Source of the DNA: Mytilus galloprovincialis | Taxonomy: Eukaryota; Mollusca; Bivalvia; Mytilida; Mytilidae | Reading direction: 5' to 3' | Length of the DNA stretch: 64,000 bases | NCBI RefSeq assembly: GCF_965363235.1 | Contig: NC_134851.1 | Coordinates: 38,468,321-38,532,320, forward strand | Notes under the pieces: model-generated | Database searches by the model: none | What the model saw: only the letters and a program-made list of their open reading frames with translations | What the model was told of the DNA's origin: nothing | Program-made: the position numbers and the translations under genes | In this document: positions 1-56,513 of the stretch, in pieces | Layout of the letters: the number at the start of each line of letters is the position of its first letter | How positions within the stretch are numbered: position 1 is the first letter of the stretch

Positions 1-408
1 ATTTATGCCAATGAGTATTTAATTTGGCTTAATTCGAATTGAGTTATTCTACTTTAATTGAATAGTATACATTTTCTGTGAAGTATAGCTTCATTGAGAA
101 ACAAACAAAAAACATAATTTATGAAATTTACATAAAATATTTCAAAAGGACTTGTCAAAAAGCTTTAAAATGATAGTCAAAAACAGATTAAAACAAACCG
201 ATGATAATTGAACTGACATATCCAATACTATAAACATCACCTAAAAATATGTTCATAAAAATTAATTATTTCATATCGGTCGAGAATAAGATTCTCTTAT
301 TGGATAAAAAGGGGTCACATGGCATTCATTATTCTTCAGTAATAAATTCCATCGGTCATTAACAGAAAAAAACGGACCAGAAAAACGGTCGTTAACGAAC
401 TTTTACAT
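1..408. other. AT-rich spacer at window start
   Basis: No coding signal seen. The sequence is AT-rich and leads into a GATAATGAC-rich repeat block that begins at 409. Confidence 0.4.
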
Positions 409-501
409 GATAATGACCGGTGGGGCGTGGTTTCCGTCTGATAATGACCGTTGGGGCGTGGTTTCTGTCTGATAATGACCGCTGGGGCGTGGCTTCTCTG
501 T
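409..501. repeat. 31 bp tandem repeat, three units
   Basis: Three consecutive 31 bp units begin at 409, 440 and 471. Each starts with GATAATGACCG and contains GGGGCGTGG, with only a few differences between units. The GC-rich core stands out from the AT-rich surroundings. The GATAATGAC motif recurs in the palindrome at 760-940. Confidence 0.9.
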
Positions 502-759
502 TTAGAGAGATTTACCTTTTATGAAACATGTTCCTGATTTTAATATTATATTTAAGTTGTCGAATTGTTTATTATATGTTTTCGTAAATATAAAATTAAA
601 GATAACTTGATTAAGTATTTATATACTAAAAAATTGCACTAAAATGAATGACAGGTCTTCACTCTTTGTCATAAAAATCGTACAACTACCCGAGTTCGCT
701 TTAGGCATTTTGAATTTACGAGAATTTTCCAAAACATGGTTTCTCAATGAAATAAACAT

Positions 760-940
760 AATAGTTCTTGAAAAACTGGTCATTATCGTGATACATGGAC
801 TGCCCGTAGGACAGTGGTATTGACTGCGACAGCGATAATGACCTCGCCTTTGGCTCAGTCATTATCACTATCTTAGTCAATACCACTGTCCTGTGGGCAG
901 TCCATATATCACGATAATGACCAGTTTTTCAAGAACTATT
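760..940. repeat. Long imperfect palindrome (foldback repeat)
   Basis: The left arm begins AATAGTTCTTGAAAAAC and the right arm ends with its reverse complement. The arms stay complementary for roughly 75 bp around a short centre, so the whole unit can form one long hairpin. Several GATAATGAC motifs lie in the arms in both orientations. It looks like a foldback or MITE-type element; no target duplication was resolved. Confidence 0.85.
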
Positions 941-1582
941 ATATAAATAATGCAGAATAAAAAAAGAAAGAAAAAAACAATTTGTGGGGAACTATTGTGT
1001 TTACAGATCACCATAGCGATGACAGTGACAAATTAATAGCATAAACAACACCTTAAAATATGTGTATAAAAATAAATTGAGGAGACAAGTAAAAAAAACA
1101 ATATTTGTCAAGGGAAAAAAGGGGAGAGAGGACAAATGAACACAAATGTACAATTTTAATTGCATTCCAGAATCACCATATTAAATTAACTAAAACATAA
1201 ACAGACTGATTAATACATATGTAACAAACAAATAAAACAAGAACACATTCAATACTATGATAATCATATTTGACAAAATTCAGAAAATAGTAATATTGCT
1301 TAGATGTATAACCGTTATGTATAACCTGAAAACTTGTCATAGATAAAAGGCTTATAACTTGCCATGTCAGACAGGCATTTCTATGCATATGACTGATCAG
1401 TGGCAATAAAACAAGTTGGAAACTCAAATCAAAAAAGAAATTAAAGAACATCAAAAATACAAAAATTCTTGGAAAAATTGTGGCAACTTTTTATTCACAA
1501 TGGTTAAAGAAGTAAATTGTCATTCATGTTTGCTGGTAATTTGTTTCATTCTACAGTTTGACATTTCTTTCTTCTGTTAACT

Positions 1583-1701
1583 TCATATATTTCTTTTAGC
1601 AATGTCCATGATGCCTTTCTTATGTTTCTCTTCAAAGAGTATGTACATTAATACCAATGCAAAAAGTAAAGCAAGGTTAATGATTAGCAAAGTTAAAAAT
1701 G
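1583..1701 (-). CDS. Possible terminal exon encoding a membrane-spanning tail
   Basis: Read on the minus strand, a TTGTTAG acceptor is followed by an open frame of about 39 codons to a TGA. It encodes a hydrophobic stretch (core LLIINLALLFALVLM) followed by a charged tail containing EEKHKKG. The shape is that of a C-terminal membrane anchor with a short cytosolic end. The acceptor is phase 1, as are the introns of the CNPase gene that ends 2 kb upstream on the same strand, so it could be an alternative last exon of that gene or belong to an unseen gene. AT-rich DNA can produce such hydrophobic frames by chance, so this is weak. Confidence 0.22.
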
Positions 1702-1950
1702 CTAACAATTAAACAAAATAAGGAAGAATGAAACAGTATATATATGTTTAGATAACATAAAAATCAAATATTCTAAATAACAATAAAGAAATAATTGCTA
1801 GTATTCTCATTATCCCATAAGCATTAAAGAAAGCTTAAAAAACAAAGATAGCAAAAAAATGTGTCAATTGGACACTCACATTTATAATTTTGTTCTGTAC
1901 ATGTGAACTGAATAATCAAAGTCAAAACCATACTAGTATAAGCATGTATT

Positions 1951-2350
1951 TTTAGGATGTAGGTGAGGTTTTGGATTTTGTGTCAGATCTTCCGACTCCT
2001 TGTTGTTTTTCCCTACAATACAAGAAAAATATATTGCCCCAAAACACCTTTTTATCTTTTCATATGAGATTTAATAGCTCATAAAAGGTCATTCAACAAA
2101 ATTTAAGCAGATTCTTTTCTTTCTTACTTTTGATTTGAGACCAAAATTATACCAATGGAAATATGAGGTAAAAGTCTGAGTCAGCCTTTTTTCACCTTGT
2201 TTCAAAAATCAAATACTGGGTATCTCGAAAAAGAGCTCCATGCTCTATCAATATTTTAAGCTTATTTTTATCCTTTACTAATGTTGGTCCAGTTTACAAC
2301 ATCAATTTTAAATTCTTGATTTATTTAATTTCACCTAAGTACATCCTTAA
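1951..2350. mobile_element. TTAA-type MITE, family B (copy 1, worn left end)
   Basis: This matches the copy at 24751-25154 over nearly its whole length. The right end is CACCTAAGTACATCCTTAA. The left end is worn but still reads AGGATGTAGGTGAG. It has terminal inverted repeats, TTAA at the intact end and no coding capacity. Confidence 0.8.
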
Positions 2351-2454
2351 AAGTTCACATCACAATTAAAATCTGTACAAAGCTTCAAGATGATATCACC
2401 ACAACTTCATAGTTTCTACCTTAAACCAAAACTTTAATTTGTAATTGGACAGAC

Positions 2455-3230
2455 AAAGTGATGGAAAAAAATTTGTAAGGGTTCCACGGAACCAAGTGTC
2501 TTGCCAACTTTTGCTGTAAATCACAGACTCAATAAAAATGAGGAAAAAAATCAATAAAAATATTCCTCTTGATACTATCTTTTGATTATAGGAAGCTTCT
2601 CTCCAAGTTTGGTAAAAATCCAGGATAGTTTATGAATCTATTAAATGTTTTAAAAACTTTAACTGCAGACTGTATGTAATGTTAACATGGTTAACTGGAA
2701 GAAAATCTAAGTCCATTTAAAAGTAAAAAAGGAAAAAAATGGATTTATTTTCTTATAAAATTTACTTCTGGATACTATGGTATGATCATAAACAAGCTTC
2801 TGTCCAAGTTTGGTACAAACCAAGGATAGTTTAAGAAAGTTAATAAAATTCTCAAAACTTTAACCAGAGTGAATGTAATGTTTCCCCACAGAAAAAAATA
2901 AGTCCATTTAAAAGTAAAATACAGAAAAAATGGATTTATTTTCTTACAAAATTTACTTCTGAATACTATGGTATGATCATAAACAAGCTTCTGTCCAAGT
3001 TTGGTACAAACCTTGGATACCTTAAGAAAGCTATTAAAATTCTAAAAACTTTAACCACAGAGTGAATGTAATGTTTCCCAGCAGAAAAAAATAAGTCCAT
3101 TTATAAGTAAAATACGGAAAAAATGGAATTTTATTTTTACAAAATTTACTTCTGGATACTATCTAATGATCATAAACAAGCTTCTGTCCGAAAAAGACAG
3201 ATAGTTGAATTTTATGGAGATTTTTTTTGT
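2455..3230. repeat. Dispersed repeat with internal 190-200 bp tandem units
   Basis: A unit containing AAGCTTCTGTCCAAGTTTGG recurs at about 2591, 2791, 2982 and 3174, a spacing of 191-200 bp. The unit also holds ATAAGTCCATTT and GAATGTAATGTT. The left margin carries GGTTCCACGGAACC. A reverse-complement relative lies at 40115-40595, with the same GGTTCCGCGGAACC edge, so this is a dispersed family and not a local duplication. Confidence 0.8.
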
Positions 3231-3426
3231 GCTGTTCAAAATTAAATGCACATGATGAATGGAGAGAATGGGAGGAATGTTTTTAAAACTCTGACCACCC
3301 AAACATCAAAATTTTCCTTTTACTTTGACTTCTTACAAAATCCCATATTTTTAAAAAAAATTTCTACCACCCTCTCTATACCCCACCAATCCTCATATTT
3401 GCTTTGCAGACTTTCAGGAGGAACAT

Positions 3427-3800
3427 TCTCTTTTGTCCACGTCTTGTTCCACATAGAACAACATCAGTTATATAATAATTATTTTTTGGGGGAGAATTGT
3501 TGAAGTTGTCACAATAAAACCTCCCCTTGTCCATGTTGTCTGATTTTCAAATTTTTAGGACAAAACATTCTCTTTTCACCACTTCTTATTCCACATAGAG
3601 CATCACACAAGTGCAAAACAAATTTTATTTTGGGAGAATTGTTTAATAAAAGTTTTCACCATAAAACCTCCCCTCATCTGATTTTCAAACTTTCAGGACA
3701 CACATTCTCTTTTCTCCACTTCGTATTCCACATAGAACAACACAAGTGTATAACAAATTCATTTTCTGGGAGAATTATTGAAGCTGCCACCATAAAACCC
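3427..3800. repeat. About 140 bp tandem repeat overlapping the CNPase 3' end
   Basis: Three units of about 140 bp share TCCACATAGA, GGGAGAATT and ACCATAAAACC blocks. The third unit contains the final codons and stop of the CNPase-like gene, which reads on the minus strand. The other two lie in its presumed 3' UTR. A minus-strand AATAAA falls at 3624-3629, about 130 bases past the stop, inside the middle unit. Confidence 0.75.
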
Positions 3801-6800
3801 TGTATACAAACCCTGAACAGTAATTGGACTTTCAAGATTAATAATAAACAAATCTTTTCCTACATTCTGTATTGTCCCTAAGGCACATTTCTGTACAGTT
3901 ATAGGGATATTTTCAAGTTTACTTTTCATTTCTGCATCTAAAATATCTAACAAATCCTCATTTGTTGTGACTGGTGGTATCCCTGGTATTGTTCCTATGG
4001 TAACATGTGCAGCTCTACCAAATTCCAAAGAGACAGAGTTATAGTTCATAATTGTTCTCAGCATTATCTCCCTTTCTTTTTCCTGAGGTTTTTCATACAA
4101 TTTTAAACATTGCTTTGATAACTGCACTTTGGCCCCTATTGTTCTTGGGGTGACTGTTATTCTTGTGATTTCAAGATCATGCACTGACCCATATGACCTT
4201 TGAACTATGTCCATATTTGGATATGTATCACGGTTAGGAGCTGGATTTCTTCTCGTTCCCATGAACATGGCTGTGCAATGTAGAATGTTGGTTGAATTTA
4301 ACTTGAAATTTTCATACATTTTCTGCTCTACTGTATCTAAAATAAATAATTTATCAATGTAGATATGTTTTCTAAAGCCACATTTATTTTACTATTTTAC
4401 TTAGCAAATTTTATACATCATAATTACTTTTACGATAAAAAAAAACATCTATTTTTTTTACTTCATAACAAATTTTTGAACATTATGTACTGTAAATTCA
4501 TAAATTATTGCAATGTTTTTTGCATAAGAAAATGCCTAACCAAGTCAGGAATAAGACAGTTGTTATCCATTTATTTCATGTGTTTGAGATTTTGATTTTG
4601 CCATTTGATTACAGATTTTTCTGTTTTGAATTTTCCTCATAGTTCTGTTTTTTAGTTATTTTACTTTTTATTATTAAAAAAATGATGGGATATTTTTTAC
4701 AAAAATAAAAAATTACATATTTAGTTTGATTGCAAATGTGTATGAAGCATTACTTGAAATAGCAATAATATCTAGTAATCTGGCATTTATGTCCATTGTT
4801 TTATAATTTAATTTTGGATGTAACGTGTCTTCTGATTGGCTGTTATTTTGTTATCAGCCCATAGACATAATTTAGTTTTGTGACCGTGACGTCATCAATG
4901 TTTTTTCATGGTTTTCTACGGTTTAAAATGGAATTTAGAATCAAATTATAAGAAATGACTATAATATTTTTTCTGTTTATTCGAAATAACATAAAAAATG
5001 TGGTGCACACTGTTCAATAACCCGCTACGCGCATTATTTAGTGTGCACCAAATTTTTTTATGTTATTCCTGATAGACAGAAAAAATATTACAGTCATTCC
5101 TTAAATAATCAAAATAATAAATGCATCCACAAATTTCTGAATTGACAATACCTTTATCTCTTTGCAAATTAAGTTGTTAAGGTGGTACCTAACACTACAG
5201 GGAGATAACTCTGTAAAGTCAGCTAAAAGTTTTAATTACGTTGTGTTGTAAAGGGAATATTAAGCTTCTCAATGATCAAAATTGGTGTTTGTCAAACTGC
5301 TATATAACCAGTGTATTTTTTCTGACAACCCTGTTGCTTCAAAATTTTCAAAATTTTTATATTTTTGTTAAAGTCGACAATAAAGACAACAACACTCATG
5401 TTTTTACCGCATAGTATCTGTTTATTGGGTCGACATGTTTCGCCTAATCGATAGTCATCATCAGGACAATTGTTATTTTGAGTTTTAATGCAGGTAGCTA
5501 ATCAATCCACTGTATGATGAAGAGATACTATAAACAGTCTCATATAAAATGTTTATTGTTGAATTAAGTATTTTATAAATGAAGTGTTGAATTCCCTGTT
5601 TTTTGCATGCTTATTTTGTGACATGGTCGAATGACCCAAAATCAAAATTGTTTTATAAACCTTTTTTATGAATGGCAACTAGGGTAAAAGGATTTTCAGG
5701 TAATACAATAGGTTTGGCAAGGTTTTAGGACACTAAAACATGAAAAATCTTCGAAAAATAAGGATTAAAAACAATTTTAAATGGTCACGTTGTCGGACTA
5801 ACATTTTCTGTCTTCTTCCTAAGTGAAAATGAAATATAAGTTATGTAACAAAAGAGGGTAATTAAATGCACAAAATATCTTGAGGCTTGAGCTTATTAAC
5901 TAAAATGTGATAATTCATCATGAAGATACAGCAGAAAGTTTAATTTTTTTCAGGAATTGTCATTAAAGTTTACTCTTGAAAAATCTGTCCAACCGTAACG
6001 GGCGAAAATTTCAATTTTCATTTGCAAGTTGCCGACTCGGTTTAATTTTTTTTTAATGTTTATGACAACAAACTTTACGACAATCGCGATGCGCATACAA
6101 TATTGCTGCCAACTGTTCCTTTTTACTCGAGGTCAACGACATCAAAGGGGTGAACACTCTTTCTGTCCAACCAAGAGATTGAAGTTACATCCAAATTAAT
6201 GTTACGTCCAACATCCAAGATATTCTCTACAATGGCTACCATAAGTCAAGGAATCAATTTCGCTTCCACTTTGACAATAACTTAAATTAAATACTACCGT
6301 ATATATGAAAAATAAAGAGGTTTTAAACTGTTGACAGTGTAAATTTGACATAATTTTGAAAATTAGGACGTAACAAGAGTCCAATAATGTTCTGTTGGAC
6401 GAACCTTAGGACAAAATCTTCTAATGTTGGACGTAACAGCTTTTTAAAAGTAAAAAGAAACTTGTTAACAACTAACAAGTCCACACAAATTTAAAAATAG
6501 TTCTCAGACCCTTCCTCGTCTCTTCTTAAGAGGTGCCCATTTTTAAATTGCCATTAGGATCAGTAAAATAATTAATTCTGTCCTATCTTTGTCCGACAGG
6601 GAATACAATCTGTCCTATGTTTGTCCTACAAAAAATGAATTCTGTACGCTGTTCGTCCAACAGTTTTTTATGGTTTCATTTTATCCATTTATTTAATAAT
6701 GAACCATTTTACCTCTTGCTGAGGAACACCAGCTGTAGATATTAGTATAAACAACATAGTTTTGATTTTGTTTTTGACTTTGAATGATGCAAATGGAACA

Positions 6801-9800
6801 AATTCTCATCCAAAAATGTCCCCGTTTGTCCGACATATTTTAAGATTTTCAAACTTATAAGTTAATTTTTGAAAAATTTAACAAAATGATGTACTTTAAT
6901 TGAAGATCTTATGAACTGTCAGAGAAAAATTAATATATTTATTAACAAAGCCTTCATATAAAAGGAAAATATTCATTTTTCAATGTCCTGTTACGTCCAA
7001 CTTAACCTCTGTCCAACATGCTATTTAGGTCTAATTTTATGTATTCTGACTAAATAACTATCTTTTTACATGTAAAACCCTAAACTAGAATCATTCTCCT
7101 TTCAGAAAATCATGTTATTATGATTGAAACAGCTACTTTTAAAATCATACATTTTGTCACACACTTTCAACACTATACTGAATACTTAGCCATTTTTCAT
7201 TTTTGTTAAAGGACCAAAGTAAATACATTGTCAAAATTTTATGAATATTAAACGAGCCAAATTAATTTAAGGGAAAGTGTTGGGTACCACCTTAAATAAA
7301 GTCTTCAAATAAGATGAAATTAATGTACCAAAAAGTAGGTCACTAGTCTTGTACATAATCATGTGATAATGAAATTAATTTCCTTATATATAACAAAAGT
7401 CATATAAAGGTCAACCAATCGTATTTAAAATTATTACTATACAAAAGCTGATTTAATCCATGGCAAAACAAAATATTTAGAACCCCTATCACAGTTTAAT
7501 TGTACTATTTTACCTGCATGTGAAATAAGAAGTGGTCCTATCACCTGACCAACATGTTCTGTTACTTTTGGAGAGTTTGCTGTAATTGGATTTCTTATGA
7601 ATTCTTCTAAGTTGTCTTTGAAATCTGTTAGTTCTATTATCTGAAAAATACCAAATGACGTTGAAACCAGCAAAGCAAAATGTTAACATGGTAACGCAAT
7701 TTAAAAGAGAAAACCATTATGAATGTATTTTCTTATTTTAAAGTCAATCAAGTGTGGTTCCAAAGGAAGTTTTTATCCGTTGAAACATTTCTTTAATTAA
7801 TAAAGTACAAATAAATGTTTGAAGATTTTAAACAAGCTGAAAATTTACAAATGTACCTGGTCTAAATTATTTGGGATATGTACAATTTTTCCAACTTACA
7901 ATATGTTTTGGTTTTATAAAGATAAAATAGGTCAATATTTGGTGAGATACCAATTGCGAGTTGCAATCAATACATCCCTTAAAGAGTAAACTTAAAAATA
8001 AGATGGGGTATGATTTCCAATGAGACAGCCGTCCACCAGAGGTAAAGTGACATTAGTAAGGTGACGTTAAATCCGTAGGTTAAATCATATGACCTTCAAC
8101 AAGTCAATTAATGAATGAAGTTTATATTTTTACCTTAGGCTCACTCATTTTCTAAACCAACCAAACTGGGTTTCATGAATGTTTGAAATATTATAATGTA
8201 GGTTTAGCGCTGACAAATTGACAAATAAAATTAAGTTGTTTGGCAGTTTTTGTAGGTTTTACTTGTACATAACATCAGTGATTTTGCTAGCGAATGGTCA
8301 CTTTCATAATTTACGAAAATGGTTTTCTCATTAAAGAAAGTATTTCAAATCAATTTCATCACTTAAGTTTTGAAAGTGTAAAAATATTTTTACTATAAAT
8401 CTACCGGTCTTTATGTTTTTGACAAGTTTATGATCCCCAGGTAATTAACATTTACATACAAGTTGTGATTACAACTAATCGGCTTATCTCCATCAGATAG
8501 GTTACTAATCTGTTAATTAAACCTCATAATTGACCATTATAATTATTTTCCCCCAGAAGATGTATGTAACATACTAGTAACCTGAACACATAAGTCATGA
8601 ATACCAACTCATTCCTTTTGGCAGTCCTCTGGGTTTTACTTCCATGTAATATACTAACCTGAACACATAAATCAGTAATGAGTATTAAATCTTCATCAGA
8701 AATGTCCTTTCCCATTGAATGTTTAGCTGTAAATTTCAGATCATTCTCTAGTTTCCTGGGTAAAATGTTACTAAAATTTATACTGTTTGCATTTTTCCTG
8801 TGTCCTGTCAAAAATCAATTGATATAAATTATGACAAAGGAACAGAGGATTAAAAAAGAAGCTGATCTATAAGATGACATTGAGGGGTCTCAATTTTAAC
8901 AACCTTGACTACACATGAGAATTAATTAAAGAGAGCTGAAAAAATTGCCTAGACTCTTTTCACAAATGACCTTACGACAAAAATTTATGGAAACTTATAC
9001 TGAAATGATCATGGTTTCCAAATATTTTTTCTTGTAAATTATTTTTGTAAATTTGATTGCTGCTTTACTGGTACCATAAACAAAATAATAAAACCTCCTC
9101 TCATCTGATTTTTTTTATTAATGATCAAAGCTAAATGATGTCAAGGTCAGATGAAGTCAGACAGACATTAGACATTACAATCATATTATACAACAAATAC
9201 AGCTCTCTTTACCTTATCAGGCTTACGGTATCGGAGAAAAGATCTTATCACAAAAACCTAGTGCTGACCAATGATCCATGAAAGATTAAGTCAATGGCAG
9301 AGGAAACCTGTACATATATGAAGGAGTTGTTCCTCTTACAATTATTCTTTATATCAAATACCGTTGGTCTAATGAGGAAGGATAGGGTGTTTTTAAGCTC
9401 AGGATTTCGGGATTGACCCTTTTGAGATCTGGGAATTCTTTTTTCAAATTTTGAGATGTCGGGATTTAAATTTATTTAAATTTGGGACCTCGGGATTTCG
9501 TATTTTTAAGCCCACGATTTCGTGATCAGGACCCCTCCGACCCCCCACTCTAATGATTTCTGAGGAACAGACCAAAATCACCAAAATATAATGTATACTA
9601 ACATGACCAATGCAATGAACAATGAAAATAGATTCAAGGTCAGATGAACCTTTCAAAAAAGATTAGTTCTCCTACCATCTGTTTGCACCAAATTAAAATG
9701 CAGTTGACTTTTGTTTAAAGGATCTTAGAAGAAGACCTTATCATAAAAATTTAATATTGGCCAAATAATAATGAAAAATGACTATGTCACCATTCAAGGT

Positions 9801-11584
9801 CACCATAAATTATGCTATATCTAAAATATGTTATAGATCACTTTTGCTTATGGTTAAGATAATGTGAATTTTTAAAATGTTAACATTATTCAGAAAAATA
9901 AATGTTAAAGCATTGTCTGAATAAAAAAGCCAGAGAGTAAAAAATCATAAAAAAAAGTCCAGAAAAGATCATTGTGTGATTTTCAATAAGGGTACTTTAG
10001 AAAAAATCTAAATTACCTAACTGTTTTACTACTCTTGCATAAATCAAACTGTTTGGCACTAGGTTCTTCAATTCTGGGAAATGCAAACCATACCATTCTG
10101 TGCACTTCAGTATACAGTCATCCAATTCTTTCTCTACAGCTTCTAATAGATCTGAAATCATATCAACCATGAATTTAAATTCTAAATAAAAGTTGGAACA
10201 ATTACAATTTGTTTGTTCAATGGTATACATTCCTAAAAGTTATTCTACTTGCATTTGTCATACCAGTGAAGAATATCATGGATGAAAGACACAGCGATCC
10301 TATATTCTAGATTCCACCATCTGTGGTGGCAACATTAAGGTTAAGTCTATTATTTAATTTTGTTTTTTATACCATTATTCTGTTAAACCTTCCTTGAATT
10401 TTTGGAAAATTTACCAAGAGCTTTTTAAATTTAATCTTCATGATTGAAAGATGTTTCTATAGCAAAATTTGAAAATTTCTTTTTTTCTTTTTTTCATTTT
10501 TTCATATTTATTTTATGAATCGAGTGGATTTTTATTCCAGTTAAATACAGTCAACAGTTAAAATTCAAAGACACAATTAAATTTCATGTTTCTCAAAAGA
10601 TTTCCTGATAAATGAACTTTTTTGGCAGTATATACACTTTTACACTGACCGTGAGCAGCATTTGGAAATAAATATGCAGTGTTCTGCGGAACAAATGTTT
10701 TAAAAGATCTCTATACAATTTACATACTTAATTCTTATAAAACACTTTAACATGTTAAACAAACCTGGTGACTTGAAAAGTAACAAATCCTTAAACTGTG
10801 GAAAAATTCTAAGGCACTCTTCCAAACTCTTTCTCCCTAATTGATATATCATGTTAGACTGCTGTTCGTCAATAAACCATCCATAATACAGTGGCGTTAC
10901 ATCTTCAAAACTTCGTAATTTTTGTCTAATAATATCTGCAGTTACCCCATGGCTATTGAGTTCGGCTAACTTGTCAGCATCCTTACTCCATGGTGTCCTT
11001 GGTTGTACTAGGACAACGGGATAATTATTTGTGAAGGCCAGTGCCAAGTAACTTGACATTTCCCAACGTTTAACATTTGTATTATCGATGACAACAACTG
11101 GTACCCCATTTAAACATGCTTTTTTGGCTTTCTCACCACATTTTTCATGTGCAATTGATAAATTAGATTTGTCAAATCGATATTCACCATTTTTCATAAA
11201 ATACTGATCAGCAGAACATATTTGACTATCCCTATACATACTACCAATCAATTTTACTAGTGTCGATTTTCCTGAACCAGAAACTCCCCTCATTATAAAC
11301 ATAGTTTTAGAGTGCTTAATGTGTGAAATAGTCGGCTCATCACACAGAAATGGAAAGTTCACAGTTTTGTCATTTCTATCCACACTAAAATCTGGTGGCC
11401 TCCCTTCCACTTCCACACTTACTGCTTTTATCACCATTTCCTCCACAATTTCTTTCCTTCCATCTAATTCATCATCAACCTTGACAAGTTTGCCATGTTT
11501 GATTTGTTTTAAATGCTGTTTAGGTCGTATCCATTTTAGTACTGTCTGAACAATAATATAGAGCTCATGGAATAAAACAATCAT
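3759..11584 (-). CDS. CNP: CNPase-like protein: P-loop kinase-like domain plus 2H phosphoesterase domain
   Basis: CNPase hydrolyses 2',3'-cyclic phosphates at the 2H domain, and its N-terminal half is a polynucleotide-kinase-like P-loop domain. The main exon is 11625-10765. Its ATG at 11584 follows a TTTTTGCAG acceptor, so an untranslated or further coding 5' exon probably exists. The terminal exon is 4336-3759. Spliced directly they give 465 residues; human CNP has about 420. Visible motifs are Walker A GVSGSGKST (100-108), SAD (124-126), DNTN (167-170), the first 2H motif HCT (293-295), the second HVT (384-386), and YTGFYG near the end. Residues 1-19 are hydrophobic or amphipathic and may anchor the protein. 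The vertebrate C-terminal CaaX box is absent; the tail is NNSPRK. Three NOP58-like exons sit in the intron between the domains and are described separately. Confidence 0.88.
4952..5105. repeat. Palindromic element, about 150 bp
   Basis: The left arm contains AGAAATGACTATAATATTTT and, further in, GTGGTGCACACT. The right arm carries their reverse complements, AGTGTGCACCAAA and AATATTACAGTCATTCCT. The centre holds CCCGCTACGCGC. It is a hairpin-forming MITE-like unit within the CNPase intron. Confidence 0.85.
5177..7295. mobile_element. TTAA-type MITE, family A (copy 1), split by an insertion
   Basis: The ends are TTAAGGTGGTACC and GGTACCACCTTAA, as in the copies at 21178-21458, 34655-34933 and 53552-54454. 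Uninterrupted copies are about 280 bp. Here the two halves are separated by a 1.8 kb insertion at 5374-7198. There is no transposase. TTAA at both ends fits piggyBac-type mobilisation. Confidence 0.88.
5374..7198. mobile_element. 1.8 kb retroelement-like insertion with a 13 bp target duplication
   Basis: The insertion splits a family A MITE. The 13 bp ATTTTTGTTAAAG lies on both sides (5361-5373 and 7199-7211), as expected from a retrotransposition-type target duplication. Its left end contains CGACATGTTTCGCC and GATAGTCATCATCAGG, which read in reverse as CTGATGA..GAAA, the pattern found near ends of some Penelope-like and ribozyme-bearing retroelements. There is no long open frame. The interior holds about a dozen GTCCAAC or GTTGGAC-type motifs in both orientations (for example near 5985, 6158, 6201, 6424, 6648 and 6990). 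Confidence 0.65.
7514..10151 (-). CDS. NOP58-like three-exon cassette inside the CNPase gene
   Basis: Three minus-strand exons, 10151-10017, 8804-8659 and 7640-7514, each have an AG acceptor and a GT donor (TTAG/GTAATT, TCAG/GTTAGT, GCAG/GTAAAA). They total 408 bases (136 codons) without stops. They match the NOP58/NOP56 family in order: EWYGLHFPEL, then HRKNAN and SMGKDISDEDL, then LTDFKDNLEEF and IGPLLISHA. This is the NOSIC/coiled-coil region and the start of the Nop domain. The later Nop motif, GAEKALFRAL in NOP58, is absent, and I find neither NOP58 start nor end nearby. The cassette enters and leaves in phase 1, the phase of both flanking CNPase exons, so it can be included or skipped without changing frame. 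Included, it makes residues 274-409 of a 601-residue chimera. A non-functional captured fragment remains possible. Confidence 0.8.
8571..8700. repeat. Short duplication at the edge of the second NOP58-like exon
   Basis: The block containing ACCTGAACACATAA occurs twice, near 8581 and 8658. The second copy is the genuine exon end and donor of the 8804-8659 exon. The first looks like a duplicated donor region about 75 bases into the following intron. It could give a decoy or alternative 5' splice site. Confidence 0.6.
9366..9545. repeat. Dispersed repeat family R (copy 1)
   Basis: It has repeated phrases such as GGATTTCGGGATTGACCC and GGACCTCGGGATTTC, ending in GATCAGGACCCC. Two more copies lie at 13433-13640 and, inverted, at 13746-13925. 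No coding sense is seen. Confidence 0.8.
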
Positions 11585-11839
11585 GGTACTGTCTTTGATG
11601 TTGTACAGTCTTGAATAAAACAAATCTGCAAAAATAAAAATGATGAATAATAAAAATAATAATGAAACAAAGTAAACATCCATATGAAGAACAACAATTA
11701 ACAAAAAGCTTTCTCTTCGAAATTTAACTCTACTTTTCAATTTATATGTTGTCTTTTTGTGCCCTATCTGATCTGTCATTGCCTGTGTGTTATCTGGTCA
11801 TGGTGTTTGTGCATCTGGTCTTGTTTTATGCACTCTCAT

Positions 11840-11841
<2 letters not shown>

Positions 11842-11873
<32 letters not shown>

Positions 11874-11887
11874 ACTCGTCTAAACAT

Positions 11888-11961
<74 letters not shown>
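11842..11961. repeat. (AT)n microsatellites
   Basis: Two runs of alternating TA, about 30 and 70 bases long, are separated by a short unique stretch containing ACAACTCGTCTAAACATC. Confidence 0.97.
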
Positions 11962-11964
<3 letters not shown>

Positions 11965-12179
11965 TTTTTTAAAGATTTTTATATAATCTGTATCCTATGT
12001 TTATATTGATCAGTATTATGTATCAGATGGGTTCAAAATCATTGCTGATCAACTTATTTTCCAAAGGCTATGCTCCATGGACATGTTGTAAATATAAGTT
12101 ATGTACATTTGTATGTAAGCGGTTCCTAGCCTACATTCTTGAAGGATTGTTATGAAATTTATATCAAAAGATCATAATG

Positions 12180-12290
12180 ACAAAATTCAGAATGGAAAAT
12201 CGGAAATGGGGAATATGTCAAAAAGATAACAACCTGACAAAAGTGCAGATAACAGCCAAAGGCCACTATGAGCACGGTCTTGGTAAATCT
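12180..12290. repeat. Dispersed repeat fragment (family D type)
   Basis: It contains GAAATGGGGAATATGTCAAA followed by ACAACCTGAC and GCCACTATGAGCACGG, a fragment of the repeat seen more fully at 44180-44540. Confidence 0.6.
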
Positions 12291-13160
12291 TATAAATCAT
12301 AGCTCAGATCAATTATTTTTTTCAAGAATTATGTCCCTTGGAAAAGTGAATTTTATAGTAGTGCTCAAGTAAGCCTGTATAAACCCATACCACATCTACA
12401 ACTGTACAGAGTCAGGTTATCTGGAAGTTATTATTTTAATCTCCTTTGTCATGTTTGTTCGTACATAAGAGAAGTTTGGTTTTGGTGGTTCCGGTGTGGT
12501 TTTGTTGTTCCATCAAATATTTTTAGTAATTCCTTTTCAGATGTAATATTCTGCATCTACTGACCTTGCGAAGGGATGTATAGCACTTCCATCCTTCCAT
12601 CATCTTCTGTATTAATATACAAAACTTTTAACCCTTATTCATGTATGTTGTGTGTGTGTTGTCAAGCCATGTGCATTTGATTCAAAATTCTGCAAATGTT
12701 ATGTTATAATGGTACAAAAATTTAACTTTAGTACTAAAGTCCTTTTACAATATATATATATTGGAGTTGAAACAAAAAAGTAATATATCATGAACATGAT
12801 GTATGTGGTCACTTCAATGGAATAAAGGGCATTAAATAACTGTAACAAACAGATCAGCTCATAATCAGCAGCATCCTCACAGAGATGGAATTAATTTACA
12901 TGCTGATGCAAAACTTTAAGAAGCTCAAATTTTTGCAGGGGAGGTAATTTAGGGTCATTGGATTTTCCAATAAAATATATCCTATCAATGACATGTACAT
13001 AATATATAGTTTTATCTTTTTAAATTTTAAATGCCCAATAGTCCTTTTCACAATTTCATCAGGATTAAACTACATTTTATAAGTCAGGCAATTTGTTAGA
13101 CCCAAAATAGGACAAAATAAGGGTGTAAATTATACTTGTGTAAACCTGTTATAAGCTAAT

Positions 13161-13273
13161 CCAAATAATTATGACGTCTGGCAAGGCTATTTTAATTTTT
13201 ATCTTGGACGCCTTCCTACTACGTCCCAGAAAAGAATAATAAAATAGCCTTGCCAGACGTTACAATTATTTGG
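13161..13273. repeat. Hairpin element with 35-45 bp arms
   Basis: The arm CCAAATAATT..ACGTCTGGCAAGGCTATTTTA is matched by TAAAATAGCCTTGCCAGACGT..AATTATTTGG. The loop contains TTGGACGCCTTCC. The ATAAGC found just outside both arms (about 13151 and 13281) may be a flanking duplication. Confidence 0.85.
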
Positions 13274-13432
13274 ACCAGTTATAAGCATGATAATTTATCT
13301 GCTTATAAGTGGGATGAGTTAGTAAAATGTTGGGTCAAGATGGTCAGAATCGATTTGACAATGGGAAAAATTGTCACAGTTTCGACATAACATTTTTTAG
13401 TTACTCTATAAGAAATTTAGAGCATGCTATTA

Positions 13433-13625
13433 TGAGGGGGAGGGACCTTTATCTGGACTCTTAGATCTGTTGTTTGTAAGCTCGGGATTTTGGGATTGAC
13501 CCTTTCAGGATCCGAGAATTCTTTTTTTCGAAATTTGGGATGTCTGCATTTAAATTTAATAAAATTCGGGACCTAGGGATTTTGTGTTTTTAAGCCCGGT
13601 GATTTCTGGATCAGGACCACTTCTT

Positions 13626-13640
<15 letters not shown>
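13433..13640. repeat. Dispersed repeat family R (copy 2)
   Basis: Same order of phrases as 9366-9545: GCTCGGGATTTTGGGATTGA, then a GGACCTAGGGATT block, then GGATCAGGACCAC. It ends against a poly-C run. Confidence 0.8.

Positions 13641-13658
<18 letters not shown>
13627..13658. repeat. Poly-C run of about 32 bases
   Basis: An uninterrupted run of C lies between two oppositely oriented R repeats. Its length is likely variable or uncertain in the assembly. Confidence 0.95.
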
Positions 13659-13745
13659 TTAACATGGCTAAGAAATTTTAAAATGTAAATTCAAATCAGG
13701 TTAGATTAAGACAAACATATAAACACTGTGTATATATATATATAT

Positions 13746-13925
13746 CTATGGGGAGGGTAGCAGGGGTCCTGATCCCGAAATCCCGGGCTTAAATACTAGA
13801 AATCCCAAGTCCCGATATTAAATAAATTTAAATCCTAAAAAGAAAAAAAAGAAAAAAAAAGTCTGGAAATCCAGAGCTTAAAAACATTTGATCTCAGAGT
13901 CCCAATAAAGGTCCTATCCCCCCTC
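13746..13925. repeat. Dispersed repeat family R (copy 3, inverted)
   Basis: This is the reverse complement of the R family: GGGGTCCTGATCCCGAAATC, then AAGTCCCGATATTAAAT, then CAATAAAGGTCCTATCCCC. With copy 2 it forms an inverted pair around poly-C and a short TA run. Confidence 0.8.
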
Positions 13926-14523
13926 GTATATATAAAATCTATGACTATGATATGGTTCATTCAGTTTTTACGGCACATAGTCATCAATATTATGATGGAG
14001 TGCAGAAATTAAAAGAAGAAGCACTTCCTTTATACTAGTATCTAAAATAACAATTAAAATAATTATAAATTCCAGCTTAATGTTTGTGCCATCTTTTTAT
14101 GTTTTTTTAAATTTATTACCTTGCTTTGTCTTTCTATTCTATTATAATAGTCAATATATTTTCTTTTATTCTGTATTACAGCATGTGCGTGTTGTGACAA
14201 CACAATTCTAGGTTCTATTTTCACTTTGAGAAAATGATGTACACCACAGGAATAAAGTCATAAATAATATAGTAAAAATTCAATAAAATAAAATAAAATC
14301 TATCCTATTCAAAAATGTAGTATTTTTAGTTATATGTTAAAATATTAGCGAATTTATATTTGTTTAAATATTTAAATGGATAGATTGTTTTTCAAGGTGA
14401 ACATCACAATTAAAGATGTCTGCGTCCATAACATTTTACAACTTTGAGAAACAAATGCTTAAATTTCTGATGAAACAGCTCTGTATTTACATATGACGTT
14501 CTTCAGAAATACAATTCTCGAAA

Positions 14524-17500
14524 ATGATTCCCTACAAAGACGAGGAAATTGTGCAATTGAGAAATAATAACACCGAATTAAAACAAATTCCGAAAATAGA
14601 AGAGAAACAAACTTATCATGACTTTTTCTTGAACTATTTGCTCCCAAATTATCCTTGCATCTTATCATCAGACTTCACTAAACACTGGCAAAGTAGAAAA
14701 GAATGGTGCCTATCAGATGGAAGCCCAGATTTCGAATTTCTTCAAGTTAGATTTGGTAAAATTTAATTTAATCTAATTTTGTTTGATGAGCTGTTTAAGC
14801 CACAGGTATCAGGTCCATTTGCACCCAATACACTTTCACTCCCTACACGTTTGCACCTGGTACATTCGCCCCCTAGGTCTGTTCTCACCCAACAGGTTCG
14901 CACCGAATTCTGAATCAAATTCTAGTCAATCTTCTTAAAATAAGTTCTCATCACTTGCTCCTCGATTTTTTATCAGTCGCCGTGTGAGATATAAAAAGTC
15001 GAGGAGCAAGTGATTAGAACTTTTTTTAATAAGATTGAATTCCAGTTAAATCATGATTGTTGTTTAAAATTGCTTTGATGTAAATACTGCATGCATTTAG
15101 CTTGGTATGAGTAAAACATTGAAGATTTCAAATGAAAAACGCAATTTAAGATTTAATTATAAATTTTAACAGCTTGGCCCCTTTGATCTGAAACAACATG
15201 AACAATGAACCAAAAAATTAAAGCAATACACTAACCAAAACATGATTATGATTTATTCAACACAAAGAAAAAACGTTGACAGAATCTCACTTTATTTAGA
15301 AACAATGTTTAGTATTTTTAAGAATACATGTACTCTATTCAAAACGTTACATTATTAAGATTAATTTAACACAAAAAAAACGTTGTCTCACTTTATTTAG
15401 AGACAATGACAAAAAATATACTTATATAAGTTATGGGATTACACTTGCCAAAACTTGATTACAATGTTATTAAACACAAAACCAATTAAAACTAGGCACG
15501 AACGTGTAGGGTGCGAACAGACTTTGGGTGCGAACGTGTAGGGTGCAAAAGTGAAAGGGAGCGAACGTGAATGGGTGTGAACGGACCTGGATTCCAAGCC
15601 ACAGGCACTTGTTTCTATCTAATTGTCTTTCTAATTTTAATGCCAAATTATAGTTTTGACCCTAATTTCACAATCCACTGAGCATACGTGTATAAAATTA
15701 TACTTTCCCGCTTCAGCATGTTTAGGTTAAAGTTATTGGTCAAATATTTCATCTTACACAAACCCCGTTCTCTAACTTAATTTGATCCTATCTTTTTTGA
15801 AAAGACAATCCATCTTTCTTATTGAAATTGTCAGAGAAAATCTTCTGAGACTTCTACAATGAAAATGAATGTGAAAAAGTTGTGTAGGATGAGTGTTTAT
15901 CTGGGTAACTTATCTTGATGAATGTCAAGTTGAGTTAATTAGTTAAATAAGACAGTTATTGGAACCTCTTTTATTCATTGAAACATGTGAAATAAGTGTC
16001 AACTCAACATTTTTATGCCGCACCTAAGATAGTAGAGGGGCATTATGTTTTCTGGTCTGTGTGTCCATTCGTCCGTCCCTCCGTCCGTCTGTCCTTCCGT
16101 CTGTCCGTTCAGGTTAAAGTTTTTGGTCAAGGTAGTTTTTGATCAAGTTGACATCCAATTAACTTGAAACTTAGTACATACATGTATGTTCCCTATGATA
16201 AGATATTTCTAATGTTAATGCCAAATTAGAGTTTTGACCCCAGTTTCATGGTCCACTGAACATAGAAAATGATAGTGCGAGTGGGGCATCCATGTACTAT
16301 GGACACATACTTGTTTGAAAGATTATATCAACCTACATTTTAACCATAGATCTCTGTAACTATCTATTGCCACTTTATTGAAAAGTAGATGTTTCACGAA
16401 TAAAAAAAAAACATTGCTGGGAATTTATTTGAAAAGGAAGCATTCTGAATATAATACTAAGACACAAAAAAGTTATATAAATAAAAATAAGAAGATGTGG
16501 TATGATTGCCAATGAGACGAAACTTAAAAAAAGACCAAATGACACAGAAATTAACAACTATAGGTCACTGCATATTAACAGTATTGATATTTTCATTCAT
16601 TGATATTCAATAAATATTTTCCAGGAAATGCATGTGTACCTGTTGCCAATTGTAAAGAGGAAAAATATGGTTCACATCCAAAGTCTGAGATGACAATACA
16701 TAACTTCATGTCTTACTGGGAGAAGTATAAACAAAGGGGTTACCCTGAGGACATGGATTGCTTGTATCTGAAAGATTTTCATTTTATCAGGTAAACACCT
16801 TTCAGTTACAAATTTTTTCTATTTATATCAGTAATCAAGCTATATACCGGTAGGTTTGAAAATACTTTCCTCATCATAATCTAATAGCTAATACTGATCA
16901 TTATAAAAATAAGGAGATGTGGTAAGATTGCTTAGTCATATATAAATGACAAATGAATGAGACAGTCTATATATCCACCAGAATAATTCAAAAGAAAGTT
17001 GAGATCTTTCCCTGTGAAGACAGTCTGCAGGGTTAGCCACTAGTCCGATGCCCCAGACTAGTAAAATTTCTTTCGGACTAGTGAGTTTTTGCAAAACTTT
17101 GTTTGGACAAATAAGAAAAATGTCTTAATATTGATCTTCGGACTAGTAGTTGAAAAAGTTTTTGGTGCAGACTGTGAAGGGAACTTAATGAATATTTCTT
17201 TTGCTATCAGAAATCTGCATACTTTTAATACATGATAATAGTTTAATTTGTGTCCATGTGTCCAGACACAAAATGCACACTAGCTAAATTTTGCCACTAA
17301 TGCAGTTCAAATGAGGTGGATAGAACCAATTATAGGTCACTGTAAGGCCTTCAATAATGAGAAAATCCCATACTGTATAGTGGGCTATAAAGGTCCCAAC
17401 ATGAAAAATATGAAAAAGATCAAACAAGGAAACTAAAGTCCTAAATTATAACATTATAATTCATTAAAAAACAAATATTAAAGACATAAACCAACACGAA

Positions 17501-20500
17501 CAACAACCCTTGAATTGGGACAGGTGAAACAGCACACCATCAAAACAAACTGAACAAATCAATCTTAATCTTGAAAGTTTTCCAGCACCGATTTTTATCT
17601 TTTTCAGAGAGTTTCCGGACTACAAAGCCTATGAAACTCCAGAATATTTTACCTCAGATTGGATGAATGAATACTGGGACAAGAGAAATGAGATTTGTGA
17701 TGATTATAGATTTGTCTATATGGGACCTAAAGGTTCTTGGTAAAATTTTATGCATATCAGTTTATGTTATTGCTTGATGGCTACCTAACTCTGATCAGAA
17801 AATATTTTATGAATTAGATTAACATGATTAATAATTAAAAATATGCAAAGATAGACATTTTAACTAATAGAAAAACTTTCTCATAAATAACCAATATTAT
17901 ATTGAAATGTGGAATGATAAATTGCCAGTAAAATAATTATATTATTAAATTTATGGACTTGAAATTGATTATCTGTAGAACATATATACATATAGAATAT
18001 TAGGTCAATGTCAGAAAAATTTTAACTTTTTTGTATGTGGCTGAGAAACAGTTTTGCTCCGAATACAAAAAAGTTTGTATTTTTATGACACTGACCTAAT
18101 CTAGTTTTTATACTGCAACTTTAATTAATTAGCCTTTTAAATCGTGACACAAATGTCAAGCTTATTTTAATCCCTTGATGAACAGCTGATTGAGGTTACT
18201 ATATTTAGAAAATAGACACAACTAGTTACAGTATAAACAGTGTTCAGTAGGAACAAAAACAAGCAGAAAACATAAAAATATGTTATTAAAAGAACCAGGA
18301 ATCAAAAAGTTCAACAGATGTTTTCAAAAGAAAAATTAAAAATTAAAAAAAATTGGTAAAATACAGAGGAAAAGTCAATCACAAAGAATAAAGAATGTTT
18401 AGAACTTTTATTAACATGATTAATATAAGGAGGAAATCAGAAAACTACAAGTTATTCCCCATAACCATTTCCAACTTTTATGTTATTTTATGTTATTGTC
18501 ATTGTTGAAATTCTTTTCATTAATATTTCTATGTGTATGATTTGTTTATATTTTATCTTACAGGACACCATTTCATGCTGATGTGCTCAGATCTTTTAGT
18601 TGGTCAGCCAATGTCTGCGGAAAGAAAAAGTGGATCTTTTTCCCTCCAGGTAAATTTTTTTAAGAACAATGTCCACATGCAAAAATATCATTCAGAATAA
18701 AAGATATAAAATGAAATTAAAAGCAACAACACTCTTAATCTTCTGAATATAACTGCAAAGTAACTATCATAACAATGATCTTCATATGTTTTGCCAGCAT
18801 ATGATTACCTGACTCTGGGTTGCGAGTTATGCATTGCTCAAAATAGTTATTTTTTAGTTGCTGTCTTTAGTGTTGTTTTTCCTATAACTTTGGTGAAAGT
18901 CAACTGGATATATTACATGATCATCATTTAAGGTATTTGTTATCAATATATAAAGGTTGAGCATGCATCAAAAATACTGCAATAAATTTTCAATTTAGAA
19001 TATTTCTTGCAATAGTTCTGACATGCAAACTTATTCAGTCAAAGAATTAGAAACAGAAGTTACTACACAACACATTTTAATACATGCCACATGTATTGCT
19101 ATGAAAACACCAGTTTGTTTAATTATTATTCTATACATTGTTCAGATTATTTATCAAGTCTTTTAATATCCTATTAAGTCTTGTACAGAAGTGATATTGT
19201 CTTACAAGATATATTTAGGATTGATATTGCAAGAATTATCTCCCTTTGTACAGAAAAATGGAATTAAAAAGACGTCATGTTATTTTCTTTCATTAAATTC
19301 CTGGACTTATAACAGACTGTTCATGCTGTTAAATAGTTGTTTCAAATCAAGCATACAATCAATGTCCTCTATTCAAATTCATACAAAAATGGTGAAGTGA
19401 CTAAAATCTATTCATAATGCTCCTTGTGATTTTTTGCCTGATGCATATCCTGATTTTGTGTCCTTTCTTTTCTATTGTGGTAAAATTCAAGGTGAAGAAG
19501 AATGTTTGAAAGATGTTCATGGACAACTTGTTTTTGATGTTAATTCTGAAGATTTGAAGAATCCTAAGAAATACCCCAAATTTACTGAACTCAAACACAG
19601 AATAGAAGTAACACAGTTACCAGGGGAGATAATATTTGTCCCAAGTGGTTGGCATCATCAAGTTTTCAATCTGGTAAGTTTATTGTTGTTGCCAACAACT
19701 GCTGTGGATTGATGTACTTTAAGAGTGTAGACCTTATTTCAGGGAGATTACTCTTTAAGTCATTGATGCGTTTGTAAGAGTCAACTTTCATCAATATTTT
19801 TTAAGCATTTATCTGAAACAGATTGGAAATAATCTATGTAACCTAGAAGCTTAGAATATATTTAGGAAAATGGTTGACAAAAACGTACTGATAATTTGAA
19901 AGAGTTATTTCCCTTAACTTAGGTCTACCTCCTTAAAATGCACCAATTTTTGGTGGATTGAGAAAAACTTTTCTTGGATATTTGATTTTTTTGGTTTTTC
20001 AAAAATCATACAACAAATTTTTAATTCTTCTCACATTTCAATTCGTGGTTTCCCTGTACTCATAAAATCTTGAAAGTTGGTATCCAACAAATAAATTAAT
20101 GAATCCACAGTACTGGCCCGAGAACACAGTTATTTCGTAGTGCATTTCTTTTAGACCATAAATTCAAATTAAAAAAATCACACCTGCTCTTTCTCAAAAA
20201 GATTTTTACAGTGTAGTGTACTACCAATGAGACAAATAATATCAAAATTATAGAAACTTCTACCAGCTCTAACTCAAAATATTGACAATTCTGTGTTAAG
20301 GGGGTGTAAAATTCAGTTTGACAGCTTCAGACGTGATAAAATTTGACCTTTTTGAACTGGACCAAGTCACTACTTAACATAAAGATTCAGCACTCAAATT
20401 TTTTCAACATGTAATTACATCCCCCTACTTAATATTTCATGCATTTAATATCAAGAAAAAAATTAGGAAAGTGTATTAAATAAAACATGCAAGTTATACA

Positions 20501-23990: not shown

Positions 23991-26900
23991 TTAGCTCAAT
24001 ATTTTTATTTTTTTACATAAGAAAATTTTAATATCTTTATCCTTGTCATGCAAAACTTCTTGTAATGTAAAGTGTTTCTGAACCATGTCTAAAAATCTTG
24101 TGTCACGATCATATCGTAATTTACAAGACAAATATATTTTTGTCTCGTCATGGCTGAGATGTTGTAGTGTAGCTAACAAAGCATCAAACACTTCCTCCAC
24201 ATAAATGACATCAGCACCTAGAATTATATCGTACTTCTGAGGAAATTTATGAAGGTCTCTCGTCCAGTCTAAGATTTTCACTGAATATTTAACATTGTCT
24301 TTGTCTTTCAGATTATCCTTTAAAACACGTTTTAGATAGGGATAGACTTGCTCCCTGTCTGTGATCACAACATTGGCTCCTGAAATTAAAAGCGTTTTGT
24401 ATTATTTACATTGTCATGATTATAGTTATTGAACAATTACTTTGCAGACAAATGCTCCACTGACCATGCTGACAAAACTTGAAAAGAACAAATTTAAATT
24501 TTTTGTGTCATTTGGTCTCTTGTGGAGAGTTGCCTCATTAGCAATCATACCACATCTTCTTTTTTATATCTAGACTTTTTAGATTCATCAAGTATTTAAC
24601 AATGAAGTCAAAAGTGTTGTGGGTCTGTAAGGAGTTAAAGGGATCCGCACATGTATTGTTTACACCTTTACCATGTTTACCTTTGGTTACAGGTGGACGG
24701 TGGATATAATATATTTATTTCATAAGCATTCATATCACAATTTAAATGGCTTAAGGATGTACTTAGGTGAGGTTTTGGAAATTGGTATCAGATGTTCGGA
24801 CTCCTTGGGTTTTTTCCATCAATACAGGGTTAGATATTTTGCCCCATAACACCCATTTTTCTTTTCATAAATGACTTCAATAACTCATAAAAGGCCATTT
24901 TCCAAAATTAAAGCAGATTCTTAATGTTTGTTCTTTCGATTTGAGACCCAAATAATACCAATGCAAATGTAAGGTAAAAGTCTGAGTCTGAGTCAGCCTT
25001 TTCCCGCCAATTTTTAAAACTCAAATAACTCGAAAAGGAGCTCCATGACTATCAATATTTTTAGCTTATTTTGTTCCATAGCTGATGCTCATTCAACATG
25101 TAGTATCAATTTCAATTTCTTGATTTTTTAAATTTCACCTAAGTACATCCTTAAAGGGAAACTTCGCAAAAAAATCAAAAATTGATATTATGTCCATTCT
25201 ATATAGAAATGCTCAAATATATAGATATTAAAGTTTTATTCCGCTAGATAAGAGACCACCATCGATTTTAAATTTAGAGTATCAATTCTCTGCGTACCGC
25301 CATTTTGTCGTCTTCCCCGATTAAAAATCACGATATGTCTATAAACCACAAAGGACCAAAACTACAGTAACCAATGTAGTCGTAATTGCGTGTCGATATC
25401 TTGTCAATCGTACGGTTGTTTTATCTGACAAACTAACTTGATATGGAAAATGTTCTTATTTTTTTTAAATAACCATAGTCTGTTATTTTTAAACTGTTAA
25501 TATTGGAATTAGTTAAAAAGTCAAAGTTTAAATCATAAATATGTGTTCCGTGAAAACTGTTTTCGTAAATCTAATTCGTTTATAATTCTTTAAAGTAATA
25601 AATTTTATTCAAATAAATTCGGATCTTCCCTCATCTGATCACCAGCATGACTAAAGGTATTACTCACAAAGGTATTGTGAGGGGTGTGAGGTGACACGTC
25701 CAGGTATTCAAGCGATTTCCTGTCGGGCTTGCAAGTTCATGCATCGTTTCACTTCTGTAGGTATTGATCAGTGTACACGGCCGATAACTTATAACTCTCC
25801 ATTTTGAACTATCAGGTGTATAATATACATCTCTGTCTTGCGTGTCCGAAAGTGATATAATATACTAGTCATTACTAAACTCATACGCTTGTTTATAAAT
25901 AACATTACTGGTGTAAAGAATATTATTTATAAAAATAAAAGTAATAAATAATACCAAAAAAAAAAAAAAAGATTTGATAAAATAATAATCTATTGACAAT
26001 TTTTTTCCAAGGTTTAATTTGGGAAAATGTAATATATACTCGTTGTCAATAGTAAAGGACAGATTGGAACATACCAGAAATATTGATTTAAAAAAAATGT
26101 ACGCACTTGTCGACGATTCATTTCTACGCCTGGATAGAAAGTTACGGAGCTATATCGCAATTTAAAATATATACATGTATACATTGAACATAAGAAAGAA
26201 ACATACATTTTGTGTAAATTGGGGTAACAGTTTTGTAAATAGACTAGTCCACGTATGCCAACAGTATGTAATCATCGAATTCGATAGACTATTGTATACC
26301 AAAAGAAAAAAAAGAAGAAGAGGAGGACCAATTTGATTTAAATACAGGTCGATATAATAACTTGCTTCGGTTCATCGAAGTTATGAACATAGTAAAATCA
26401 CAAATTTATATATCAATTAGATCGTTCTCCAATAAAGGAAGAAATTCGACATCATCACAATTGTTCCGACATTCATGTAAAACATATGCAACTGGGCGTA
26501 CACTAATAAACCCCAAGGGATGTGAATATTTTCTAGGAAAACTTTTGAGTATTAAAGTTTCAAATTGATTTCGGGATTTATTTTCTTTCTTGATATTCAA
26601 TGACAGCAATTTAAAGAATAAACTGCTTGTCCGCTTTAGGGGTATTCTTGCCAGTTGAACAGACTTATAATTACATTCAAAAATAGGGAAATTAAGATAA
26701 CATTAAATTCGTTGTCTTTTTTTAAAACATCGTTGGTCAAATAGCTAAAGTTTTTCGTTGTGAGAAGAAGACTATTTTAATATAAGGACGCTCCCGATTA
26801 TGAATAAATTTGCTTGACGTTTTTCACACTTGAAAAGAATTTCTATTCATAATTTTTCGATTCCATTCCAAGAGGATCCTTAAATTTCCTGTCAATTTTT

Positions 26901-56493: not shown

Positions 56494-56513
56494 GTTCCGT
56501 CGTATATCAAAAC

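Follow-up and report, generated by a model that had tools for sequence, protein, structure and literature searches.

An in-frame NOP58-type coiled-coil cassette within the 2H domain of a CNPase-type gene of Mytilus galloprovincialis

Enzymes of the CNPase and PNK/CPDase type (vertebrate CNP, the lancelet BfPNK/CPDase and the CPDase part of yeast Trl1; PF05881 and AAA_33) combine a P-loop kinase-like domain with a downstream 2H phosphoesterase domain that contains two HxT motifs, and NOP58 is a Nop-family protein (PF01798) of the box C/D small nucleolar ribonucleoprotein (snoRNP). According to PMC8413462, Nop56 and Nop58 associate through coiled coils, and in archaea Nop5 homodimerises, its dimerisation domains also being coiled coils. 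The same paper assigns recruitment of the methyltransferase to the N-terminal domains and contact with the RNA/Snu13 surface to the C-terminal domain of Nop58. Here we analysed 64,000 nucleotides of Mytilus galloprovincialis DNA (GCF_965363235.1, contig NC_134851.1, positions 38,468,321 to 38,532,320; hereafter the window), in which three exons of NOP58 type lie in frame within the 2H domain of a CNPase-type gene, and we consider how this cassette may have arrived there and what it may do.

Exon reading and Pfam searches of the 64-kb window revealed an open CNPase-type gene on the minus strand, with a P-loop kinase-like domain preceding a 2H phosphoesterase. The exon at 10765..11625 (-) encodes the P-loop domain, recognised by its AAA_33 match (E 9.6e-13 with the cassette skipped and 1.5e-12 with it included) and containing the Walker A motif GVSGSGKST, together with the first 43-47 residues of the 2H domain. 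It is preceded by the acceptor TTTTTGCAG, which ends at 11626, and leaves in phase 1 at a donor reading gtttgt after an exon-final CAG; its first in-frame ATG (11584-11582) is a candidate start, and the true start may be at another position. Pfam and the reading frame assign the rest of the 2H phosphoesterase to the last exon (3759..4336, -), which also holds both HxT motifs (HCT at residue 293 and HVT at residue 384 of the form without the cassette) and the stop codon. The CNPase match had an E value of 1.6e-33 when the cassette was skipped and 4.3e-30 when it was included. The P-loop and the HxT motifs are intact in the host gene, and its product is a putative cyclic phosphodiesterase.

The 6.4 kb between the two CNPase exons holds all three cassette exons, each located on the minus strand by its frame, splice sites and NOP58 match. 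Exon A (10017..10151, 135 nucleotides, entering in phase 1) encodes the start of the NOP58 coiled coil (LLEAVEKELDD...FPEL...KQLG), exon B (8659..8804, 146 nucleotides, phase 1 in and phase 0 out) its middle part (HRKN...SMG...CVQ), and exon C (7514..7640, 127 nucleotides, phase 0 in and phase 1 out) the end part (IIELTDF...LLISHA). Together they amount to 408 nucleotides, or 136 residues, with zero stops, GT/AG at all ends and phase 1 on both sides. Because both ends are in phase 1, inclusion and skipping of the cassette alike preserve the frame: inclusion through junctions 10765/10151 and 7514/4336 gives a product of 601 amino acids, skipping through 10765/4336 one of 465 amino acids, each with a single terminal stop, and the junction codon specifies aspartate in both forms. 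These exons, with their lengths, borders, open frames and 408-nucleotide total, had been proposed in a first-pass annotation of the same DNA and were all reproduced here. In GC content by codon position the cassette (0.46/0.28/0.27) resembles the first CNPase exon (0.46/0.32/0.30); the last exon has 0.40/0.38/0.30.

Splice sites were ranked with crude weights against the 3,329 GTs and 2,991 AGs of the minus strand of the window. On this scale the four donors fell at the 96.0-99.7th percentile, and acceptors 8804 and 7640 both at the 95th. Exon A itself was recovered as first described; its acceptor at 10151 is uncertain, as another acceptor of the same phase, CTTTTATTTAG (AG at 10183-10182), ranked at the 91.5th percentile compared to the 72.5th for 10151. 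The resulting longer exon (10017..10181, -) adds the ten codons EFKFMVDMIS, which improve the bit score against NOP58 by only about 2 (118.2 vs 116.1).

In the inclusion product, Pfam placed a Nop match at residues 275-412 (E 2.9e-27), flanked by AAA_33 and CNPase. The top solved chain for the cassette was human NOP58 (E 1.4e-32, 116.1 bits), the value for NOP56 being 1.9e-16, and the 25 distinct solved sequences with E values up to 1 were headed by six NOP58s (116.1 to 96.6 bits); NOP56 (63.9 bits and below), archaeal Nop5-type proteins and PRP31 (49.7 bits) ranked below them. Over 135 residues the cassette aligned to human, Chaetomium and yeast NOP58 without any gap, whereas gaps were needed for two NOP56 rows and for PRP31. 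Judged from these alignments the cassette is certain to be homologous to NOP58, in agreement with its original assignment to the NOP58 type. That it follows NOP58 closely, as had also been stated, is an overstatement: 55/135 residues (41%) are identical to human NOP58, where yeast NOP58 has 80, and the corresponding counts are 58/135 for Chaetomium and 51/135 for yeast. As the three NOP58s, one from an animal and two from fungi, share 80 to 88 of the 135 residues among themselves, the cassette has diverged further from any of them than they have from one another. The motifs EWYG.HFPEL and SMG are nevertheless retained.

The matched span covers residues 168-302 of human NOP58 and positions 1-137 of the 228 of the Nop profile, which, reading from Nop5 and PRP31 structures, we take to be the coiled-coil domain and a single additional helix. 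The NOP58-type coiled-coil domain is thus present in the cassette. The C-terminal Nop part, which meets RNA and 15.5K/Snu13, is not encoded, since the Pfam match stops at profile position 137/228 and none was seen by tblastn in the window. We used human NOP58 as tblastn query over the whole window, and its N- and C-terminal pieces over window positions 1-20000. The N-terminal fibrillarin-recruiting domain gave no significant match in the window, nor did residues 1-167 alone within positions 1-20000 (best E 3.7). All non-cassette matches in the tblastn searches had E values of at least 0.45; short or diverged exons could escape such searches. Since tblastn shows no other NOP58 exon, the cassette appears as a fragment without a NOP58 start or end of its own in the 64 kb, and its translation would be possible only via the host gene. 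NCBIfam added just two sub-cut-off matches, one to a Nop56 model from archaea and the other to a bacterial kinase model.

With the cassette skipped, the protein has a single Pfam CNPase match at residues 231-457 (profile 2-215, 116.6 bits), whereas for the inclusion form the one reported CNPase stretch covers profile positions 53-215 only (105.4 bits). Alignments to crystallised CNPase catalytic domains begin at residues 227-231 of the skip form, and the insert comes after residue 273. The cassette is thus inserted 43-47 residues past the start of the 2H/CNPase domain and 19 residues ahead of the first HxT motif. The first-pass annotation had placed it between the two catalytic domains; the Pfam spans and the alignment to crystallised domains show this placement to be wrong, as the cassette interrupts the 2H/CNPase domain itself. 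The insertion site is probably a surface loop. Large insertions are tolerated by CNPase-family enzymes, an example in PMC5434554 being the two loop insertions of the lancelet CPDase domain.

The divergence of the cassette was compared with neutral decay at the 72 columns that are invariant in human, Chaetomium and yeast NOP58, where the cassette keeps 40 residues and alters 32. Simulations were started from each of the three NOP58s with intron base composition, and substitutions were added until 32/72 columns were altered (3 x 1,333 runs); they covered substitutions, the cassette itself being without insertions or deletions, and stops were excluded from the BLOSUM62 mean. The simulated sequences acquired on average 4.7 to 5.3 stops, and only 0.3% (human start), 0.75% (Chaetomium) and 0.6% (yeast) of the runs were stop-free, compared to zero stops in the cassette. 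The mean BLOSUM62 score of the replacements was +0.594 in the cassette and -0.57 to -0.58 in the simulations (standard deviation 0.31), and the cassette value was reached in 0/3,999 runs; human and yeast NOP56, taken as controls at the same columns, gave +0.70 and +0.77. Neutral decay over the whole divergence is rejected by the stop-free frame (P 0.003-0.0075) and by the conservative replacements (0/3,999). Hence, on these comparisons, the cassette diverged under protein-level constraint, either in this gene or in an earlier paralogue.

Exon capture in a symmetric-phase intron is a known general mechanism, and the phases, homology and frame observed here support the earlier proposal that exons of NOP58 type were inserted in this way into a CNPase gene. 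A phase-1 intron of the CNPase (PNK/CPDase) gene would have taken up a fragment of a NOP58-type gene, probably in genomic, intron-containing form, and the symmetric phase would permit either inclusion or skipping; optional use, as first suggested, agrees with the sequence. Upon inclusion, a 136-residue Nop coiled-coil dimerisation module would be placed in the 2H domain shortly before the first HxT motif, where it may form a surface-loop hairpin and act as a protein-protein arm that pairs with itself, with NOP56 or with another Nop-type coiled coil, and such pairing could multimerise or relocate the enzyme. We lean towards this reading, in which the captured fragment is used as a coiled-coil pairing arm within the CNPase enzyme, and consider chimeric use of the cassette likely from its sequence. 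A more elaborate version, in which a conserved, alternatively spliced cassette switches an RNA-end enzyme between a free and a coiled-coil-paired form and so, in this animal's lineage, joins RNA-end healing to Nop-type complexes, seems unlikely to us.

Several observations weigh against the use of the cassette as a pairing arm. It splits a catalytic domain and could impair its fold, agreement in strand and phase alone is weak evidence (by our estimate reached by chance about once in 18 cases), and, in addition to the modest rank of acceptor 10151, the host acceptor at 4336 fell at just the 49.6th percentile of the crude weights. Moreover, human PRP31, a more distant yet functional control, scored only -0.02 at the columns used above, so that the BLOSUM statistic marks function only imperfectly. 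The constraint may also have been exerted in a NOP58-like paralogue prior to capture, and this is the core of a rival explanation that we regard as rather unlikely, according to which the cassette is a dead or never-used captured fragment that is skipped and lost its function recently, its frames still being open. Neutral runs started from the present cassette (1,500 runs) show that a brief neutral spell often leaves the frame open, the stop-free share being 60% after 10 substitutions, 36% after 20 and 6% after 60, and a recent loss of function is compatible with the last two figures. Columns shared with NOP56 were not clearly better kept than NOP58-only columns (24/41 vs 16/31, Fisher p 0.64; 10/15 for the columns also shared with PRP31), i.e., core and NOP58-only columns were lost at a similar rate, and the host is open without the cassette, its CNPase match then being longer and higher, as the bit scores given above show. 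On the other hand, a dead fragment requires a diverged yet functional NOP58 paralogue as donor, from which a piece was then captured in matching phase with its splice sites intact, and decay across the whole divergence is what the simulations reject.

The function first proposed was that the chimera replaces NOP58 beside NOP56 and tethers CNPase activity to box C/D snoRNPs. The part kept is indeed the part by which Nop58 pairs with Nop56, according to PMC8413462, and its two motifs are still in place. The tether is weakened because the part contacting RNA and 15.5K/Snu13 is absent from the cassette and, by Pfam and tblastn, from the window; as far as these searches show, the fibrillarin-meeting part is not encoded there either, and identity to human NOP58 is just 41%, a figure counted over the whole stretch rather than over interface residues. 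With the profile covered to position 137/228 only and no other NOP58 exon found, we consider the tether improbable, whereas the coiled-coil element of the original proposal fares better: as the cassette comprises the coiled-coil part of the Nop region only, we favour a pairing arm over an RNA tether, and coiled-coil pairing is, from the sequence, the likeliest function. An assembly or haplotype artefact, in which the real genome would not hold the cassette and the CNPase gene side by side, is very improbable, as phase and strand agree on both flanks and the window is without any N or other non-ACGT letter.

If the pairing-arm form is expressed, introns would have let a dimerisation module of a nucleolar complex land inside, rather than beside, a catalytic domain, and the gene would connect 2H/PNK RNA-end enzymes with Nop-family assembly in a way that can be tested. 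If it is not expressed, the cassette would be a well-preserved captured exon fragment and a warning for gene annotation.

The surroundings of the cassette contain several repeats. One copy of an interspersed repeat lies at 9381-9546, in the intron that separates exon A from exon B, and another some 4 kb on at 13464-13631, the copies being 70, 83 and 85% alike in three blocks; the repeat could bear on the capture route of the fragment. Strong hairpins were found at 4949-5103 and 758-942, with arms 88% and 92% complementary, and perhaps resemble miniature inverted-repeat transposable elements. Downstream of the CNPase stop, a repeat block at 2593-3253 has a spacing of about 190-200 nucleotides and includes families D1 and D3. 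As for a captured small nucleolar RNA, no Rfam family reached its gathering score anywhere in the window; with the E limit relaxed to 1, positions 4300-10800 yielded three matches, all sub-gathering and two of them on the inverted repeat 4949-5103, where the matches to microRNA families are most likely spurious. No tRNA genes were found in the window.

Other coding features of the window lie outside the CNPase gene. The open frame at 56412-57278 (+) encodes 288 amino acids, a large share of them in methionine-rich repeats (MMEMMPMKMM...), with a signal-peptide-like hydrophobic stretch near its start; Pfam gave nothing for it with an E limit of 0.01, and the product is possibly a secreted structural protein. 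An exon at 19401-19712 (+) matches JmjC (2.3e-06) and Cupin_8 (7.8e-08) in Pfam and is followed on the same strand by open frames at 20778, with a sub-cut-off Pfam match only, and 22266, with no Pfam match. A lysine methyltransferase exon lies at 23991-24401 (-) (Methyltransf_16, 6.9e-22), and the open frame at 33850-34209 (+) has a sub-cut-off DUF5524 match (2.4e-06, 27.6 bits vs a cut-off of 35.6).

A literature search, with most subscription journals outside its coverage, found no publication joining CNPase and NOP58 and, judged by titles, none on a mussel gene of the CNPase type. No relatives of the cassette were encoded among 16 viral and 52 prokaryotic pattern-matching stretches, and none of the 465-amino-acid skip form among 60 genome-contig and 3 viral ones, these being viral and prokaryotic collections that are uninformative for molluscs. 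The 23 distinct solved sequences that matched CNPase (22 named 2',3'-cyclic-nucleotide 3'-phosphodiesterase and one 'G-RICH') are 214-222 residues long and were matched nearly end to end, the alignments of two having been inspected, and at this length they are too short to hold such an insert. With NOP58 the cassette shares the coiled-coil part, 135 ungapped residues with both motifs; in contrast to NOP58 it is more diverged, is set in an enzyme, and was found with neither an N-terminal fibrillarin-binding nor a C-terminal RNA/15.5K-binding part. NOP56, PRP31 and archaeal Nop5 have the same Nop-family stretch and score below NOP58, and the extra residues of the NOP56 rows are missing from the cassette. 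With the CNPase and PNK/CPDase enzymes the host gene shares the order of P-loop kinase-like and 2H domains and both HxT motifs, and the lancelet CPDase domain likewise carries large loop insertions (PMC5434554). Compared to these enzymes, the Nop-family stretch inside the 2H domain is a feature of the mussel gene.

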